NCBI GenBank assembly: GCA_030684815.1
Contig: JAUXXQ010000148.1
Location: 1 to 64,000 of the forward strand
Source of the DNA: Methylobacter sp.
GTDB lineage: Bacteria; Pseudomonadota; Gammaproteobacteria; Methylococcales; Methylomonadaceae
Reading direction: 5' to 3'
Length of the DNA: 64,000 bases
Shown here: piece by piece, positions 8,182 to 55,756 of the stretch
Position numbering within the stretch: the stretch's first letter is position 1
How the letters are laid out: each line of letters begins with the position of its first letter
Notes under the pieces: model-generated
Seen by the model: only the letters and a program-made list of their open reading frames with translations
Database searches by the model: none
Told to the model about the DNA's origin: nothing
Translations under genes and position numbers: made by a program

Positions 8182-11100
8182 TCATTTGGCGATCAACTCC
8201 AAATTCTCCGGTAATTCAAACAACGGGGCAAAATCGGACAAATCGTTTACCTGCGTCGTGGTAAGGGCCAGTTGCCGGTTAAAGGTATGTTGCCAAACCA
8301 GATCGGTTAAGCCATCACCGGTAAAATCACCCAATGAAGCCAAGCGCCAATCCAATGGCACCGGTATCTCGGCACTGCCGCTTTGGCGCGTTGTCGCGTC
8401 CATATACAACACGTTGACCATACCGCTTACGCTATGCCGCAACAGTAAATCAGCCTGATCGTCACGATTGAAACGCCCGTGCCCTAAGAGCTGCCAATCC
8501 AGTGACAGCCGCCCTAACAGGGTTCTTTTGCCACCGCTTGCCAGCTCATCCAGTAAAAAGAAATCGCCGCTGTCGTGGTCACGTAAAATGATGGCCGCCT
8601 GCTTATCGCCATTGATGTCTGCCACCAACTGCACCGTTTCAGTCGCGCCAAGCATACCCAGTGAAACGGTTTCAACCGGGTTATAGCCATTCATCAAGAC
8701 CACGGTTAATTCCCGTGACAGCGTATTTAGCAATAAGCCATCCCAATATCCATCGCCATTGAAATCGGCGAAATGCAAAAGGCTAACCTCTTGCGACAAC
8801 GCGCCTAAGGCCACCACATTGTTCACGACAAAATGGCTAATATCGGCTAAGAACACCGTTTCATCGAGGTCATGGCGCAACAATACCGCGCTACGGCCTG
8901 CAATGATGCCATTACCTTGAAGCCGCCAGCCTTGAGGCAAGGTACCCAGAATGCCGTGTTCAGCCAGTTCTTGCCCGTTAAGGCTGCCATAATGAATGTC
9001 CCCGGACACCGTATCAACCGCCATCAAATCGGCTTTGCCACGACTGCCCAGATTAATGCCCAACTCATTGGCTGGCGTAGCGCTGAATAAGGCCTGTAAC
9101 TTTCTATCATTGTTCACGGTAAAACTGTATGCCGCTGCATCGGACACCTGGCGTCCATTTTCTTGCCAGCCAATGAACGCATAACCCGGATTAGCTATTG
9201 CCCGGACAACCGCACGACTGCCCTGCAAAAAGCGCTTATCCGCCTCAATTTGCCCGGCCTGAGTGGGTTCAACAGAGAGCGAAAGCGTATGTTTGACTAC
9301 TGGCTTTGGCTCAGGCGTTGGCTCGGGCGTTGGCTCGGGCGTTGGCTCGGGCGTTGGCTCGGGCGTTGGCTCAGGCGTTGGCTCAGGCGTTGGCTCAGGC
9401 GTTGGTTCAGGCGTTGGTTCAGGCGTTGGCTCGGGCGTTGGAATGCTAAGTTCCGTAAAAAAGCCCAATGCACCTGGATCAACAATAACGCCATTGACCT
9501 CGCCGTCACTATCGAATTCCCCGCCGTCTTTAATCACAAAATCAATGCGGTTCTTACTGCCTACCGCAACAATCTGGCTGGCAATATTAACCCACTGCCC
9601 CGTGGCATTTTGTTTGAAGTAGCCATTAATGGCAATGCTGCTATCCACCCATAAACTAAACAGTTGCGCCTCCCCGACTGTCGTTTCAGCGCGAAAACTA
9701 ATCAAACCCAATGGCATATCGATATTGTCCGGTTTATTGCTGGGCGCATCTTCTTGGCTAACAGCGGTAATAATAGCGCCATTTTGCAACCCTGCTGTTT
9801 CATTCGCGACCAAGGTGACAAATACTTTCGGGGCATTCGGATTGGTACTGGGTTTGTCGGTGTTACGAAAAACGATGGAAGTGACATTGTTTTGTTCAGT
9901 ATCGATTATCCCATCACCATTGCCGTCTCCGAGCAAACCACCGGCAATAGGTGGCGGCACATTGGCTTCGACAGCATCATCAACCCCATCACCGTCGTCA
10001 TCAATAATAGGCTCAGGTTCAGGTTCAGTAATGATGACGGGGGCGACCGGCCTAACACTGACCATTTCAGAAGCCAAACCGACGCCAATAGCGTTGACCG
10101 CACGCAGTTTAATTTGATAAGTCGTGCCGTTAGTTAAGCCAGTAATCGTGGCAGGTGATGCTGTAATGACAGGATCAAATGTGATCCACGTCGTGCCATT
10201 GTTAAGTGAATACTCGTAGTTGCTGATTGCTGCACCGCCATCATTCAAAGGCAGCGTCCACGCGAGCGTGGCTTGGGCATTACCGGCGGTGGCCTGCAAA
10301 GCTGTGGGTGCATCGGGCACGGTGACCGGTAGCTCTGGGGTGACGCTGGCCGGATCGGAAGCCAAACCGGCGCCGACACTGTTCAACGCACGCAGTTTAA
10401 TTTGATAAGTCGTGCCGTTAGTTAAGCCAGTAATCGTGGCAGGTGATGCTGTAATGGCAGGATCAAATGTGATCCACGTCGTGCCATTATCTAACGAATA
10501 TTCATAATTACTGATCACTGCACCGCCATCATTCAAAGGCAGCGTCCACGCGAGCGTGGCTTGGGCATTACCGGCGGTGGCCTGCAAAGCTGTGGGTGCA
10601 TCGGGCACGGTGACCGGTACGGTTACAACAAGCACATCTGCATTAATCTGCCCATCGTTACCAGCCACATAAGCTGCACCTTTGTTCGTAAATGTGCAGC
10701 CCTCATTCTCTACACAAACAGCATGCGTCCTTGCCGCGAAGGCATTTATATTGCCTGGTATCTCGTCACTACCTACATCGACACCTGCCGGCAAAGAAGT
10801 AACACCTACTACCCCCATAATAAAGTTGGTAATGTTAAAATCTAACACCCCCGAAGAAGTCACATAAATGGCATTAATATTACCGGAAAATTCTGTCTCA
10901 GATAAGAAAGGAAGTGATGTGACAATGCCTAATTCAGCTTTAGCCAGTTTGCCATATTGATCGGTAGAAATCGATGCCGATATTAATCCTGAATTAGTTC
11001 TCAAATCAGGCGTGTCAGGCGTTGAACTATTCGGTGCGTAGTAGGTGTAAATAAACTCACCATCCTGAAATTCATAGGCCACAATAGCATTAGCGTTCCC

Positions 11101-28418: not shown

Positions 28419-29159
28419 CTATATGTAGTAGTTACTCAGCGAAGTCGGGAAGATCACTTCAATAGCCATTAAATCATTACTATAAATACCCACTAAGGTA
28501 ATGGATGCATTCCAATAAAAATCGACGACGACACCGGTGTCATATTCGATAATGCTGCTGATGGAAGCCAGCAAATTACCCATGTTGTAGATACCGGTCG
28601 TTTCAGGGAAAAAATACAGCATATCGCGTGAAGTGTTAAAATCGGTGATGACAAAATCACCTGCCGCGTAAATTGCAAAGATGTCGTTTCCGCTTCCTCC
28701 GGCCAATACATCTTTGCCATAACCGGCCCACAGCACATCGTTCCCAGAGCCGCCGTACAGATAATCGTCACCTAAACCGCCATCAAGCACATCATCGCCA
28801 TTAGTCCCATAAATAACGTCATTGGTAAAGCTACCGATACTGTTGTCAGGATAATAACGGTAATCTATATAATCATAATAGCCAATATCGTAATAATAGC
28901 TTTCAGTAACGTAAGTATCCGCTACATAATAATCAACATAGCCACTGTCGTAATAATAGCTTTCGGCAACGTAAGTGTCGGCTACATAATAATCGACATA
29001 GCCAATATCGTAATAATAGCTTTCGGCAACGTAAGTGTCGGCTACATAATAATCAACATAGCCAATATCGTAATAATAGCTTTCGGCAACGTAAGTATCG
29101 GCTACATAATAATCAACATAGCCAATATCGTATTCATTATAGTAATAGTAATCAAACAT
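28419..29159 (-). CDS. Tyr-rich tandem-repeat protein with RTX calcium-binding repeats (putative type I secreted)
   Basis: 246 residues, preceded by a good ribosome site (AACAAGGAAAGGTA). After a Tyr/Asp-rich start come four 20-residue repeats (residues 11-90; consensus DIGYVDYYVADTYVAESYYY) and a partial fifth. Then five RTX-type nonapeptides (about 118-162; GDDVLDGGLGDDYLYGGSG, GGSGNDIF), which bind calcium and fold outside the cell. The C-terminal domain contains VITDFNTSRDMLYF, a sequence that follows RTX blocks in type I secretion substrates, and ends in a hydrophobic tail. No secretion genes are nearby. About a third of the repeat residues are Tyr, unusual for RTX proteins. It may be a surface or extracellular matrix protein; function is unknown. 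Confidence 0.8.
   Translation of the reverse strand: MFDYYYYNEYDIGYVDYYVADTYVAESYYYDIGYVDYYVADTYVAESYYYDIGYVDYYVADTYVAESYYYDSGYVDYYVADTYVTESYYYDIGYYDYIDYRYYPDNSIGSFTNDVIYGTNGDDVLDGGLGDDYLYGGSGNDVLWAGYGKDVLAGGSGNDIFAIYAAGDFVITDFNTSRDMLYFFPETTGIYNMGNLLASISSIIEYDTGVVVDFYWNASITLVGIYSNDLMAIEVIFPTSLSNYYI
28890..29129. repeat. 60-bp tandem repeat array (4 units) inside the RTX gene
   Basis: Four 60-bp units with only a few base changes each (for example GTAAGTGTCGGCTACATAAT versus GTAAGTATCGGCTACATAAT) encode the 20-residue Tyr-rich repeat on the minus strand. High identity at silent positions points to recent amplification or ongoing unequal exchange. Confidence 0.92.
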
Positions 29160-46414: not shown

Positions 46415-47704
46415 ATGAACCACGGCGGTAATATTTACCAGTTCGCGCAGCGCCTTGGCTGTCTGCCGGAACAGGTGCTGGACTTTTCAGCCAACATCAA
46501 TCCGTTGCAGGCTGTTGATTTAAGTTGTTTGCAGCAGGTTCAGCTAACGCCTTATGCTGACCCCGATTACGGCTTGTTAAAACAGGCCATCAAGCAACGT
46601 TATCCGTACCCGTCCGGCATCGACATTGAGCTTTTTAACGGTGCAAGCGCGGCTATTTTCGCGCTGTTGCGCAATTTGCAGCCGAAAGATTTGGTGTGTT
46701 ATGCGCCGCTGTATGGCGAATATGCGCACATTGCCGGGGAAATGGGCTGTAAAGTGCAATACATCAACCGCTTCAACCAGCTGATGGCGGACATTCCAGA
46801 ACGCAGCACCGTTATTTTTGTCAATCCGTCGACGCCGGACGGTCAGCTTTATGATCTGAACGAGCTGTTGGCAAAATGGCAGGCGGCAAATTGCACGATT
46901 ATTATTGATGAGTCATTTTTGGATTTTTCGACCGCCAGGGATGGTGGCCGCGACTGCTCCCGGCAGTCGTCGGCATTTCCTCCATCCATGGAGGTCAGAA
47001 GTGCCGCAATGGGTAGGGAACCCATGCGGCCGACTGCCAAGGATGACGGCCGCGACTGCTCCCGGCAGTCGTCGGCATTTCCTCCATCCATGGAGGTCAG
47101 AAGTGCCGCAATGGGTACGAAACCCATGCGGTGTGCCGATTCTGTGGCCGAACAGATAGCCGGTTACGACAAGCTGTATCTAATCAAATCATTAAGCAAG
47201 TTTTACGGTTGCGCCGGTATCCGCATCGGTTTTATTCTGGCGGCAACAGCGGCGATCAAGGAACTACGGCGTTTTGAACCGGCCTGGAAACTGTCCAGCT
47301 TGGACATGGCTTATATGCAACAAGCGCTAGCCAATACCGATTTCATAGCACAAACCCGCCAGCAGACCACCCATTTACGCGGCTTGCTGCATCAAGTCCT
47401 GTACGATTCAGGCTTGTTCGACAAAATTTATCCGGGACAAGCTAATTTTCTGCTGGCGCGCTTGGCAAATCAGGGGGATGGTTATCAGTTACAGGCGCAC
47501 TTGGAAACGGCACGAATTTTAATCCGCGTCTGCGATAATTTTGCAAGCTTGGATAAAAGCCACGTCCGTTTTGCGGTCAAGGATGAGCAGGCGATAACGC
47601 GGCTTGCCGGCAGCCTTCAAATAATTGTGGGAGCGGCCACCCGGCCGCGAACAGTACGCGATTGTTCGCGGCCGAGTGGCCGCTCCCACAACTTGTGCGT
47701 ATAA
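46415..47704 (+). CDS. cobD: Threonine-phosphate decarboxylase CobD with in-frame repeat insertions
   Basis: 429 residues from the ATG at 46415, well above the roughly 360 usual. PLP fold type I: HGGNIYQFAQRLG, DFSANINPLQ, FNGASAAIFALLR, IFVNPSTPDGQLYDL, IIIDESFLDF, and SLSKFYGCAGIRIGF with the PLP-binding Lys. Residues about 174-241 are a foreign 2 x 34-residue repeat (DCSRQSSAFPPSMEVRSAAM in each), inserted between the DF and the DKLYLIKSLSK strand. The last 26 or so residues are encoded by a GC-rich palindromic repeat that also supplies the C-terminus. It makes aminopropanol phosphate from threonine phosphate. All catalytic blocks remain, so it may be functional. It heads the cobD-cobQ-cbiB-cobU unit. 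Confidence 0.9.
   Translation: MNHGGNIYQFAQRLGCLPEQVLDFSANINPLQAVDLSCLQQVQLTPYADPDYGLLKQAIKQRYPYPSGIDIELFNGASAAIFALLRNLQPKDLVCYAPLYGEYAHIAGEMGCKVQYINRFNQLMADIPERSTVIFVNPSTPDGQLYDLNELLAKWQAANCTIIIDESFLDFSTARDGGRDCSRQSSAFPPSMEVRSAAMGREPMRPTAKDDGRDCSRQSSAFPPSMEVRSAAMGTKPMRCADSVAEQIAGYDKLYLIKSLSKFYGCAGIRIGFILAATAAIKELRRFEPAWKLSSLDMAYMQQALANTDFIAQTRQQTTHLRGLLHQVLYDSGLFDKIYPGQANFLLARLANQGDGYQLQAHLETARILIRVCDNFASLDKSHVRFAVKDEQAITRLAGSLQIIVGAATRPRTVRDCSRPSGRSHNLCV
46934..47137. repeat. 2 x 102-bp direct repeat inserted in frame in cobD
   Basis: Units 46934-47035 and 47036-47137 are almost identical. Each contains GGCCGCGACTGCTCCCGGCA, TCCATCCATGGAGGTCAGAA and GTGCCGCAATGGGTA. The length is a multiple of three and the insert is open in at least three frames, so it does not interrupt cobD. 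The organisation resembles Rickettsia palindromic elements, which also insert in frame within genes. Confidence 0.9.
47626..47690. repeat. 65-bp near-perfect palindrome forming the cobD 3' end
   Basis: TGTGGGAGCGGCCAC-CCGGCCGCGAACA pairs with TGTTCGCGGCCGA-GTGGCCGCTCCCACA around a short loop. It encodes the terminal VGAATRPRTVRDCSRPSGRS of CobD, and it is the GGGAGCGGC family of 19049. It would form a strong hairpin between cobD and cobQ, and might modulate cobQ expression. Confidence 0.9.
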
Positions 47705-47735
47705 CGATGAGCATGCTACGCAGGAACGAGAAAAA

Positions 47736-49136
47736 ATGAACCCCTTAGCCATCTTCGGCACCAGTTCGGATGCCGGAAAAACCACTTTGGTCATGGCTTT
47801 GTGCCGCATTTTTGCCGATCAAGGCTTAAAAGTCGCGCCGTTCAAAGCGCAAAACGTGTCCAATAATTCGGCAGTCACGAAAGAAGGCCGGGAGATTTCC
47901 CGTGCGCAATGTTTTCAGGCCGAAGCCGCACGCGTCGAGCCGAGTTACCTATTCAATCCGGTGCTGCTTAAATCGCACGGCAACGGCTCGGTGCAGGTGA
48001 TTGTCAACGGCTTGGTTTATCAAAACCAATCGATTGCGGCTTATTACGCGGAAATCGCGGGCTTAAAACAACAGGTCAGTGCTGCGTTTTTGCAGCTGCA
48101 ACAAGATTATGACGTGGTCATTGCCGAAGGCGCAGGTTCGCCGGTCGAACTGAATTTACTGAATAAAGATTTGTCCAACACCTTTGTCGCTAATGCTTTC
48201 AATACCCAAAATATTCTGGTTGCCGACATTGAGCGCGGCGGTGTGTTCGCGTCGATTTACGGCACGCTGGAGCTGATGGATCCGGTCATGCGCCGTAATT
48301 TAATCGGCGTGGTGATTAACAAATTTCGCGGCGACCGGCGTTTTTTCGACGACGGCGAAAAGATTATTGCCGAGCGTTTCGGCATCCCAGTTTTGGGCGT
48401 GTTGCCGTTTCAGCCGCTGAATATCGACATGGAAGATTCCCAGTCGTTGCGCAATTATCAGCAACGGCTGGGCGAGGTCAAAATCCGCGTTGCGGTGCTG
48501 GCCTATCCGGGCTTGAGCAATTACAACGACCTCGACGTGTTGATGGCTGATCCCGAGCTTGTTGTCGAACTGATTCACGCTTACCGCCCGCTCGACGGCT
48601 TTGATATGCTGTTGTTGCCGGGCAGTAAAACCGTAATCCGCGATTTGCAATGGCTGAAAAAACAAGGCTTGTTTGAAGCGGTTTTACAGTTTAACAAGCC
48701 GGTGTTCGGCATTTGCGGCGGCTATCAAATGCTGTGCCGGAGTTTGCACGATCCCGATACGTTAGAATATGATAGCGCGATTACCGAAACCGGCTTAGGC
48801 TTTATCGACGATACCGTCGTTTATCAAAATCCCAAAATTCTTACACGTGGCCACTATCCGCTGTTTTCTTATGCCGAAATTAGCGGCTATGAAATCCACT
48901 GCGGCCGCATGAATAAATACCCGTTGTATTATCAGCGCGGTCCGTTCGCAGGTACTCATATCCATGGCGTGTTTGATGACGATACTTTCCGCACCGATTA
49001 TTTTAAAGCCATTAATCCACAGTATCAGGGCTATCGCTACGCCGCTTATCGTGAAGCTGAAATACAGGGCTTTGCCGATATGGTTGCAGAAAATCTCGAC
49101 ATAGCCGCCATTTTGCGGGCGTTACAGGAAAACTGA
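47736..49136 (+). CDS. cobQ: Cobyric acid synthase CobQ/CbiP
   Basis: 466 residues from the ATG at 47736 (MNPLAIFGTSSDAGKTTLV), with GGAACGAGAAAAA upstream. The N-terminal dethiobiotin-synthetase-like P-loop domain has SSDAGKTTLVMALC and PFKAQNVSNNSAVT; the middle has IAEGAGSPVELNL; the C-terminal type I glutamine amidotransferase has GICGGYQMLCR with the catalytic Cys and GTHIHGVFDDD. It amidates four carboxyl groups of adenosylcobyrinic diamide. Its stop overlaps the cbiB start (TGATG). Confidence 0.96.
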   Translation: MNPLAIFGTSSDAGKTTLVMALCRIFADQGLKVAPFKAQNVSNNSAVTKEGREISRAQCFQAEAARVEPSYLFNPVLLKSHGNGSVQVIVNGLVYQNQSIAAYYAEIAGLKQQVSAAFLQLQQDYDVVIAEGAGSPVELNLLNKDLSNTFVANAFNTQNILVADIERGGVFASIYGTLELMDPVMRRNLIGVVINKFRGDRRFFDDGEKIIAERFGIPVLGVLPFQPLNIDMEDSQSLRNYQQRLGEVKIRVAVLAYPGLSNYNDLDVLMADPELVVELIHAYRPLDGFDMLLLPGSKTVIRDLQWLKKQGLFEAVLQFNKPVFGICGGYQMLCRSLHDPDTLEYDSAITETGLGFIDDTVVYQNPKILTRGHYPLFSYAEISGYEIHCGRMNKYPLYYQRGPFAGTHIHGVFDDDTFRTDYFKAINPQYQGYRYAAYREAEIQGFADMVAENLDIAAILRALQEN

Positions 49137-54043: not shown

Positions 54044-54424
54044 AGTGTAGTTACGTTTATATAGAACACGGACGGCACGGATTGAACGGATGTGCTTTTA
54101 AATCAGTGTTTATCTGTCTAATCCGTTCAATCTGTGTCCTATTATATTTAATGTTTGAGAAAGTTTTTAACCGCAGAGTTACGCAGAGTGCGACGCAGAG
54201 TTTCGCAAAGATTTAAAAAACTCTGCGCGCCTCTGCGCTAACCTTTGCGTAACTCTGCGGTTAACGCTTTTAGCTCGCTCCCAAACCGGAGCTTAGGAAT
54301 GAGCAAGTTTTTAACCGCAGAGTTACGCAGAGTGCGGCGCAGAGTTTCGCAAAGATTTAAAAAACTCTGCGCGCCTCTGCGCTAACCTTTGCGTAACTCT
54401 GCGGTTAACGCTTTTAGCTCGTTC
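54044..54424. repeat. miaB-ybeZ spacer: ACGGATTGAACGGAT repeat and two 120-bp hairpin repeats
   Basis: 54062-54140 has AACACGGACGGCACGGATTG ... CCGTTCAATCTGTGTCC, an inverted repeat like those at 45962 and 58486. Then two nearly identical copies, about 54161-54281 and 54305-54424 (period 144 bp), each fold as TTAACCGCAGAGTTACGCAG ... TGCGTAACTCTGCGGTTAA. The second copy ends at the miaB stop. Confidence 0.85.
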
Positions 54425-55756
54425 CTAAGAAACATCGACCATCCGGCCGCGCAAAGAATTGGGCAAGGCTTCGGCAATCAGCACATCGACGAATTGTCCG
54501 GCCAATCGGGGATGGCCGATAAAATTAACCACCCGGTTATTTTCAGTCCGCCCCTGCATTTGCAGCGGGTTCTTTTTCGATTGCCCTTCGACCAGAACCC
54601 TTTGCACAGTGCCGATCATGCTTTCGGAAATCGCCGCCGTCATTTCGTTAATGCGGTTTTGAAACCGCTCCAAGCGCTGTTTTTTAACATCCCCCGGCAC
54701 ATCATCCGGCAACTCGGCCGCAGGCGTTCCAGGGCGGGCGCTGTAAACAAAACTAAAAGACAAATCGAAACCGATTTCTTCAATGAACGCCATCGTCTCT
54801 TCAAACTCAGCATCGGTTTCGCCGGGGAAGCCGATAATAAAATCCGATGACAAATAAATATTGGGGCGTACCGCACGCAACTTGCGGATGATTTCAATGT
54901 AATCGGCACGAGCATGGCCGCGCTTCATCATTTTTAAAATATGATCGCTGCCGCTTTGTACCGGCAAATGCAGATGATCGACCAGTTGCGGAATTTCGGC
55001 GAAAGCCTCAATCAGCGCGTCAGTGAATTCCATCGGGTGCGAAGTGGTGAAACGGATACGGTCTATACCGTCGACCGCCGCGACATAATGCAGCAACAGG
55101 GCAAAATCGGCGATGTCGCCATCGTCCATTTCGCCGCGATAAGCATTGACATTTTGGCCTAGCAGATTAATTTCGCGCACGCCTTGTTTCGCCAGCGCAG
55201 TGATTTCGGCGATTACATCATCAAGCGGGCGGCTGATTTCTTCGCCACGCGTGTAAGGCACCACGCAGAACGTGCAATATTTGCTGCACCCTTCCATCAC
55301 CGAAACAAAGGCTTTCGGGCCTTCAGCTCTCGGTTCGGGCATGGCATCGAATTTTTCTATTTCAGGAAAGGAAACATCAACGACGGGTTTATGCTGGCTG
55401 CGCGCCTGATCCAATAATTGCGGCAAGCGGTGCAAGGTTTGCGGGCCAAATACAATATCGACAAACGGTGCGCGTTTTTGCAGCGCCGCACCTTCCTGAC
55501 TGGCGACACAGCCGCCAACGCCGATAATCACGTCGGGGCGCTTGTCTTTAATCTTGCGCCATTTGCCCAAGGCCGAAAATACTTTTTCCTGCGCTTTTTC
55601 GCGTATCGAACAGGTGTTCAGCAACAAGACATCGGCTTGTTTAGGGTCGTCAATCAATTCAAACCCATGTGAGGCACTGAGCACATCCCGCATTTTGTCG
55701 GAATCGTACTCGTTCATCTGACAGCCGTTGGTTTGAATATAAAGTTTTTGTGTCAT
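54425..55756 (-). CDS. miaB: tRNA-2-methylthio-N6-dimethylallyladenosine synthase MiaB
   Basis: 443 residues from the ATG at 55756 ([19 protein letters not shown]). The N-terminal UPF0004 domain carries the auxiliary cluster Cys ([34 protein letters not shown]). The radical-SAM motif [16 protein letters not shown] has three Cys. A C-terminal TRAM domain has VLVEGQSKK. It adds methylthio to i6A37 of tRNA. Confidence 0.97.

Follow-up and report, generated by a model that had tools for sequence, protein, structure and literature searches.

In a methanotrophic species of the genus Methylobacter, the vitamin B12 biosynthesis gene cobD carries within its coding sequence what is very probably a non-autonomous REP-like element, present in two tandem copies and inserted in an ancestor of this species and its sister species. 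Since the repeat folds back on itself and related copies lie in frame in dozens of genes, it is best described as a gene-invading mobile repeat, a type familiar chiefly from Rickettsia. The gene is located in a stretch of 64,000 nucleotides (assembly GCA_030684815.1, contig JAUXXQ010000148.1, positions 1 to 64,000), hereafter called the window.

The open reading frame at 46415..47704 (+ strand) encodes a threonine-phosphate decarboxylase-like, fold-type I PLP enzyme; its identity is indicated by the PDB entry for Salmonella CobD (1lc5), which it matches in two blocks that flank the insert, the Pfam domain Aminotran_1_2 is likewise split into two stretches, and cobD orthologues are present across the genus. 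Between the motif DESFLDF and the PLP-lysine motif SLSKFYG, and in frame with the ORF, TRF detects an array of period 102 × 2.0 with 94% matches (46929-47131), so that the original prediction of an in-frame, twice-repeated 102-bp segment is borne out by both TRF and the ORF. From TRF and an alignment of 56 units, the first unit extends over 46929..47030 and the second, ~94% identical to it (95 of 101 positions), over 47031..47132, both on the + strand. Folded as single-stranded RNA, the array reaches −114.8 kcal/mol as compared with −83.1 in shuffles (z −7.3), while an Rfam search of the window gave no match. A second, unrelated REP-like inverted repeat (GTGGGAGCGGCC ... GGCCGCTCCCAC; 47625..47691, strand unassigned) lies at the 3′ end of cobD, where it encodes most of the last ~25 residues of the protein, the stop codon following directly; this repeat is shared with the sister genome G005, and the peptide that it encodes recurs elsewhere in both genomes. 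TRF also reports other tandem arrays in the window, at 54156-54425 (144 bp × 1.9, CGCAGAG-rich), 10070-10619 (288 bp × 1.9), 28869-29132 (60 bp × 4.4) and 9302-9441 (12 bp × 11.7).

The 102-bp unit, originally taken as the primary element, is one 51-bp module nested, in inverted orientation, inside another. Removal of the inner 51 bp (A) from the 102-bp consensus restores, letter for letter, the smallest unit of the family (B; 51 bp or 17 codons, CGACTGCCAGGGATGGCGGAAGTGTCGCAATCGGTAGGGAACCGATGCGAC), and the reverse complement of A can be aligned with B (shuffling P 0.001) and also matches a subfamily of solo A modules of the same genome, whose tandem copies at two loci (L004 and L018) likewise have a period of 51. 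In the cobD array the nested A modules, inverted relative to B, occupy 46948..46998 in unit 1, as delimited by dissection of the consensus, and, in register, 47050..47100 in unit 2 (both − strand). In each module a bulged hairpin with the loop NGGGA comes after the tag GGATGGnGG..GTG. In unit 1, hairpin A (46947..46974, +) has a 6-bp upper stem, a 5-base loop and a 4-bp lower stem, with 96.6% of cells paired and both-side changes in three pairs, and hairpin B (47003..47030, +) has 5 bp, a bulged A and 6 bp closed by the loop AGGGA, with both-side changes in five pairs; in unit 2 the corresponding hairpins lie, in the same register, at 47049..47076 and 47105..47132 (both +). Over the 56 units, 94.9% of the pair cells are standard pairs and the compensatory cells, in which both sides have changed, number 34 as opposed to 6.0 in shuffles. 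Both unit sizes are open in frames +1, +3, −2 and −3; the contention that the unit is open in several frames thus holds for four of six, but this is no excess over what composition alone yields (shuffle mean 2.7, P 0.22).

The search for further copies that had been proposed returned six matches to the unit in the same genome and at least 330 BLAST matches in 20 of the 23 genomes of the genus, among them that of the isolate M. tundripaludum SV96. When 84,980 species genomes were scanned for a degenerate 33-base core, 54 stretches emerged, nearly all from Methylobacter (among them Ca. M. oryzae KRF1 and the isolates SV96 and OWC-G53F), with a few from other Methylococcales. At the level of the order, matches were found in 41 of 301 genomes, all of one family, and 369 genomes sampled from the class added only two, G313 and G426 of other orders, in which short stretches match the A module. 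Phages, plasmids and viral contigs, searched as carriers, gave no match. In SV96, 13 of 25 matches are inside coding sequence, as judged by flank length or Pfam, the rest being at gene ends or intergenic. The SV96 copies (L284-L306) are clustered, seven gaps being shorter than 15 kb where 2.2 would be expected (P 0.003), and the largest of the three contigs contains 23 of the 25 (P 0.0005). In Ca. M. oryzae KRF1 (G011; L143, L146, L147, L153 and L179) the module is embedded in a longer composite repeat, AGACCTTCCAGGTTTTA...TAAAACCTGGAAGGTCT.

The architecture of the unit recalls that of REPINs, in which two bulged hairpins in opposite orientation constitute one mobile unit (PMC3116915). That the copies represent a true REPIN population, moved by the trans-acting RAYT transposase of their host, is a possibility that we regard as real but doubtful: the two inverted palindromes do occur here as one unit, any target duplication left by the insertions is of ~1 bp at most, and Y1_Tnp genes are present in all 23 genomes of the genus. 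On the other hand, the second module is nested in the first and not placed beside it, and no cognate RAYT emerged from 70 fetched Y1-transposase loci of the genus (a subset of the Y1_Tnp hits), none of which has its transposase gene directly flanked by the repeat or its subfamilies. Only L179 and L228 have a copy nearby and in neither case does it adjoin the transposase gene, the L179 copy being ~240 bp past the end of the match, inside the Ca. M. oryzae composite repeat, and the L228 copy at the margin of its stretch; other palindromes flank several of the RAYT genes. Furthermore, the stem bases in the consensus of the 56 units (GTGTCGC...GCGAC and GGCCGA...TCGGC) show neither a GTAG nor a CGTC tag, and the 13 intragenic copies among 25 in SV96 contrast with the mostly intergenic location of REPs (PMC3733652). 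A RAYT is thus a possible mobiliser, albeit one that these loci do not support. Three of the Y1-transposase genes (L202, L213 and L219) are flanked by a different palindrome, TTCAAAGC(C/T)GGCTTTGAA, with which they likely form a RAYT-REP pair.

The repeat is short, palindromic, and dispersed both in and between genes, as a MITE derived by deletion from a DDE transposon would also be, yet this origin seems improbable. The ends of the repeat (CGACTGCC ... GATGCGAC) are not terminal inverted repeats, and at the junctions of filled and empty sites no target duplication beyond ~1 bp was found, as follows from the length gained through a solo insertion, which equals the tandem period (51 or 102) exactly.

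The REP-like element, whatever its mobiliser, is found at 32 independent in-frame coding sites, which include MurE, MurF, PurK, CobK (twice), CobN, CobQ and RecC. Pfam places the inserts in or beside the domains of PurK, RecC, CobK, CobN, UDG (uracil-DNA glycosylase) and ABC ATPases, as well as of MurE, MurF, CobS, CobQ, an NRPS and others, and some of the invaded genes are usually essential. The genome with the cobD array also has members of the solo 51-bp subfamily in frame in LeuRS (L025), AroA (L006), a DUF29 protein, an ABC-F-like protein, a NadD-like nucleotidyltransferase (two copies in tandem; L018) and RapA (L021), the last with two copies that match each other at no fewer than 50 of 51 bp. 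Filled and empty alleles are mostly 51-bp steps apart: relative to the shortest allele, the net length is 102 at two different sites of cobK and in murF, and both 51 and 102 in each of cobS, modC, cobQ and murE, whereas a few sites have other net lengths (e.g., 60, 63 or 33, partly due to other modules) that are still multiples of three. The cobQ of the window (about 47685-49100) is itself an empty site, whereas the corresponding position is occupied by an insert of 51 bp in SV96 and by one of 102 bp in G005. The peptides predicted from the inserts in SV96 include GRIDSLSIATLPPSLAVA in CobQ and RLPGMTAETAPGSPR in RecC.

The reading frames used over the 32 sites (−3 at 15, +3 at nine, +1 at six, −1 at two, −2 and +2 at none) are unevenly distributed among the open frames (P 0.001 for coding sites selected partly by their open frame); that frames which are all open should nevertheless be used so differently points to selection on the encoded peptide. 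Of 120 copies examined separately, 51 lie in a frame that continues through the copy and for 60 codons or more both before and after it, and seven have long, unjoined frames on both sides; six of these were read out and resemble junctions of two genes, most clearly at L005, L290 and L302, as judged from start codons and products, and in most of the six the repeat provides the end of the upstream ORF. No clearly broken or split gene was seen among the 120 copies, a check which lessens, without removing, the ascertainment that partly accounts for the scarcity of broken genes, the coding sites having been found partly through the requirement for an open frame. Translation of the inserts is what the frame use suggests, together with the dN/dS of cobD presented below. 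Removal of the repeats from the mRNA, or their skipping by the ribosome, which would leave the proteins normal, could be envisaged in view of the strong hairpins with compensatory changes and of the insertions in usually essential genes, but is very unlikely: the uneven use of frames, the absence of stops in the coding copies and the net lengths in multiples of three would all be needless if the repeat were removed.

The history of the insertion can be read from the alleles of cobD. A search of 61 genomes produced 26 cobD genes with the DESFLDF motif, namely that of the window, 20 others from the same genus and five from other genera of the family. No insert is present at the site in 23 of the 26 (18 of these 23 being of the same genus). 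The spacing between DESFLDF and SLSKFYG, assumed originally to be of a few residues, is 20 to 23 residues in all but three of the 26 genes and exactly 20 in the 18 other genomes of the genus, as compared with 87 in the cobD of the window and 71 in that of the sister genome G005. Of the 68 foreign residues initially proposed, the insertion stands and the number becomes a net gain of 67 (201 bp), one codon below two full 102-bp units; the net gain in G005 is 51 residues (153 bp), corresponding to an array of 102+51 at the same site. The array is not an assembly artefact, since G005, assembled independently, has this 153-bp version and the repeat is present in the isolates SV96 and OWC-G53F. The cobD units of the two genomes have in common a private stem, ATGGGT/ACCCAT, which suggests that the duplication took place within the cobD locus; this agrees with the premise of a duplication but not with its being strictly recent, for G005 already has 102+51 and the flanks of the two genes are separated by a dS of 0.22. 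Comparison of the cobD flanks in the two insert-bearing genomes (dS 0.217, dN 0.033, dN/dS 0.15) shows that the gene stayed under purifying selection while carrying the insert.

On the structure of Salmonella CobD (1lc5) the insert falls between chain residues 193 and 207, at the junction of the two aligned blocks, and, judged by homology only, would form an exposed loop. The cobD of another genome (G009; L050) has at the same place an unrelated palindromic insert of 84 bp, in frame, with the ends GTAGGGGC...GCCCCTAC, which looks like a pair of GTAG-type REPs; this second insert shows that the spot was invaded twice and suggests that it tolerates insertions. A useful function of the insert in CobD, which its retention in two species and the low dN/dS of its flanks might indicate, has very little in its favor when set against the difference in length between the two species (67 vs 51 residues), the lack of the insert in all other relatives and the occurrence of the same peptides in unrelated enzymes. 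Finally, the idea of a minisatellite born in cobD by slippage, without any mobile element, to which two near-identical tandem units in frame might lend themselves, is refuted by the dispersion of the unit at hundreds of unrelated places, often as a single copy and with clean empty sites.

For the REP-like element a mechanism can be outlined in which copies assembled from 51-bp modules, nested in opposite orientation in a REPIN-like fashion to give the 102-bp unit, would move as short, folded single-stranded DNA, with a putative transposase acting in trans and leaving a target duplication of about 1 bp at most. Since 51 is divisible by three and the majority of frames are open, a gene that is hit would gain 17, 34 or 51 codons and not be broken, selection then purging the copies located in harmful places or frames. 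In the case of cobD, insertion in the ancestor of the two sister species would have placed a loop of ~67 residues after the Asp-PLP motif and before the Lys-PLP strand. It may tentatively be added, as a reading less likely than not, that two diverged subfamilies have both kept the length of 51 bp because modules that leave the frame intact persist in genes, in which case the element would be mainly intracoding and would supply new peptide segments to core enzymes.

Translated palindromic insertions are, as a kind, already known. Like the Rickettsia palindromic elements (RPEs), with which the original prediction compared it, this is a dispersed palindromic repeat with many in-frame copies in unrelated genes whose flanks are intact, as seen from the 32 coding sites, their Pfam context and the empty sites; the likeness concerns the pattern of insertion and implies no membership in any of the RPE families. 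The hosts here are free-living gammaproteobacterial methanotrophs, and the repeats are built from 51-bp modules with nested inverted pairs. Nor is the phenomenon as confined to Rickettsia and Wolbachia as had been supposed, since intragenic REPs or RPEs have been described in Rickettsia conorii, Opitutus terrae, Thauera, Thioalkalivibrio, Xanthomonas and others (Di Nocera et al. 2013, PMC3733652). Like the repeats described here, the intragenic GTAG- or CGTC-tagged REPs of that study occur as single, paired or grouped palindromes inside ORFs, are found in recBCD-type repair genes and in some cases provide an upstream gene with its stop codon; they differ in having a tetranucleotide at one end of the palindrome, absent here, and a size of 20-40 bp as opposed to 51 or 102, and in that about half of the SV96 copies are intragenic. 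Similarly, the enterobacterial repeats RU-1, RU-2 and RU-3 are small mobile repeats with open reading frames that have been fused into genes, but are MITE-like, of 103-168 bp and of a different lineage (Delihas 2007, PMC2759123). What is new, as far as our searches show, is the frame-preserving 51-bp module, its nested inverted pair devoid of a GTAG or CGTC tag, and its spread through the genes of free-living methanotrophs, for which no earlier report of such repeats was found in the literature searched, a body thin on subscription journals.

Palindromic insertions that are probably translated can now be studied in free-living bacteria amenable to culture (M. tundripaludum), among whose sister species both filled and empty alleles exist; as a consequence, where repeat-coded protein segments come from, what they cost and how well they are tolerated, questions hard to approach in Rickettsia, should become measurable in Methylobacter. 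Annotators and structure predictors are warned that methanotroph proteins may contain repeat-coded insertions, and the 17-residue steps in LeuRS, NadD, MurE, MurF and the cobalamin enzymes illustrate a way in which proteins may acquire loops from small mobile DNA.
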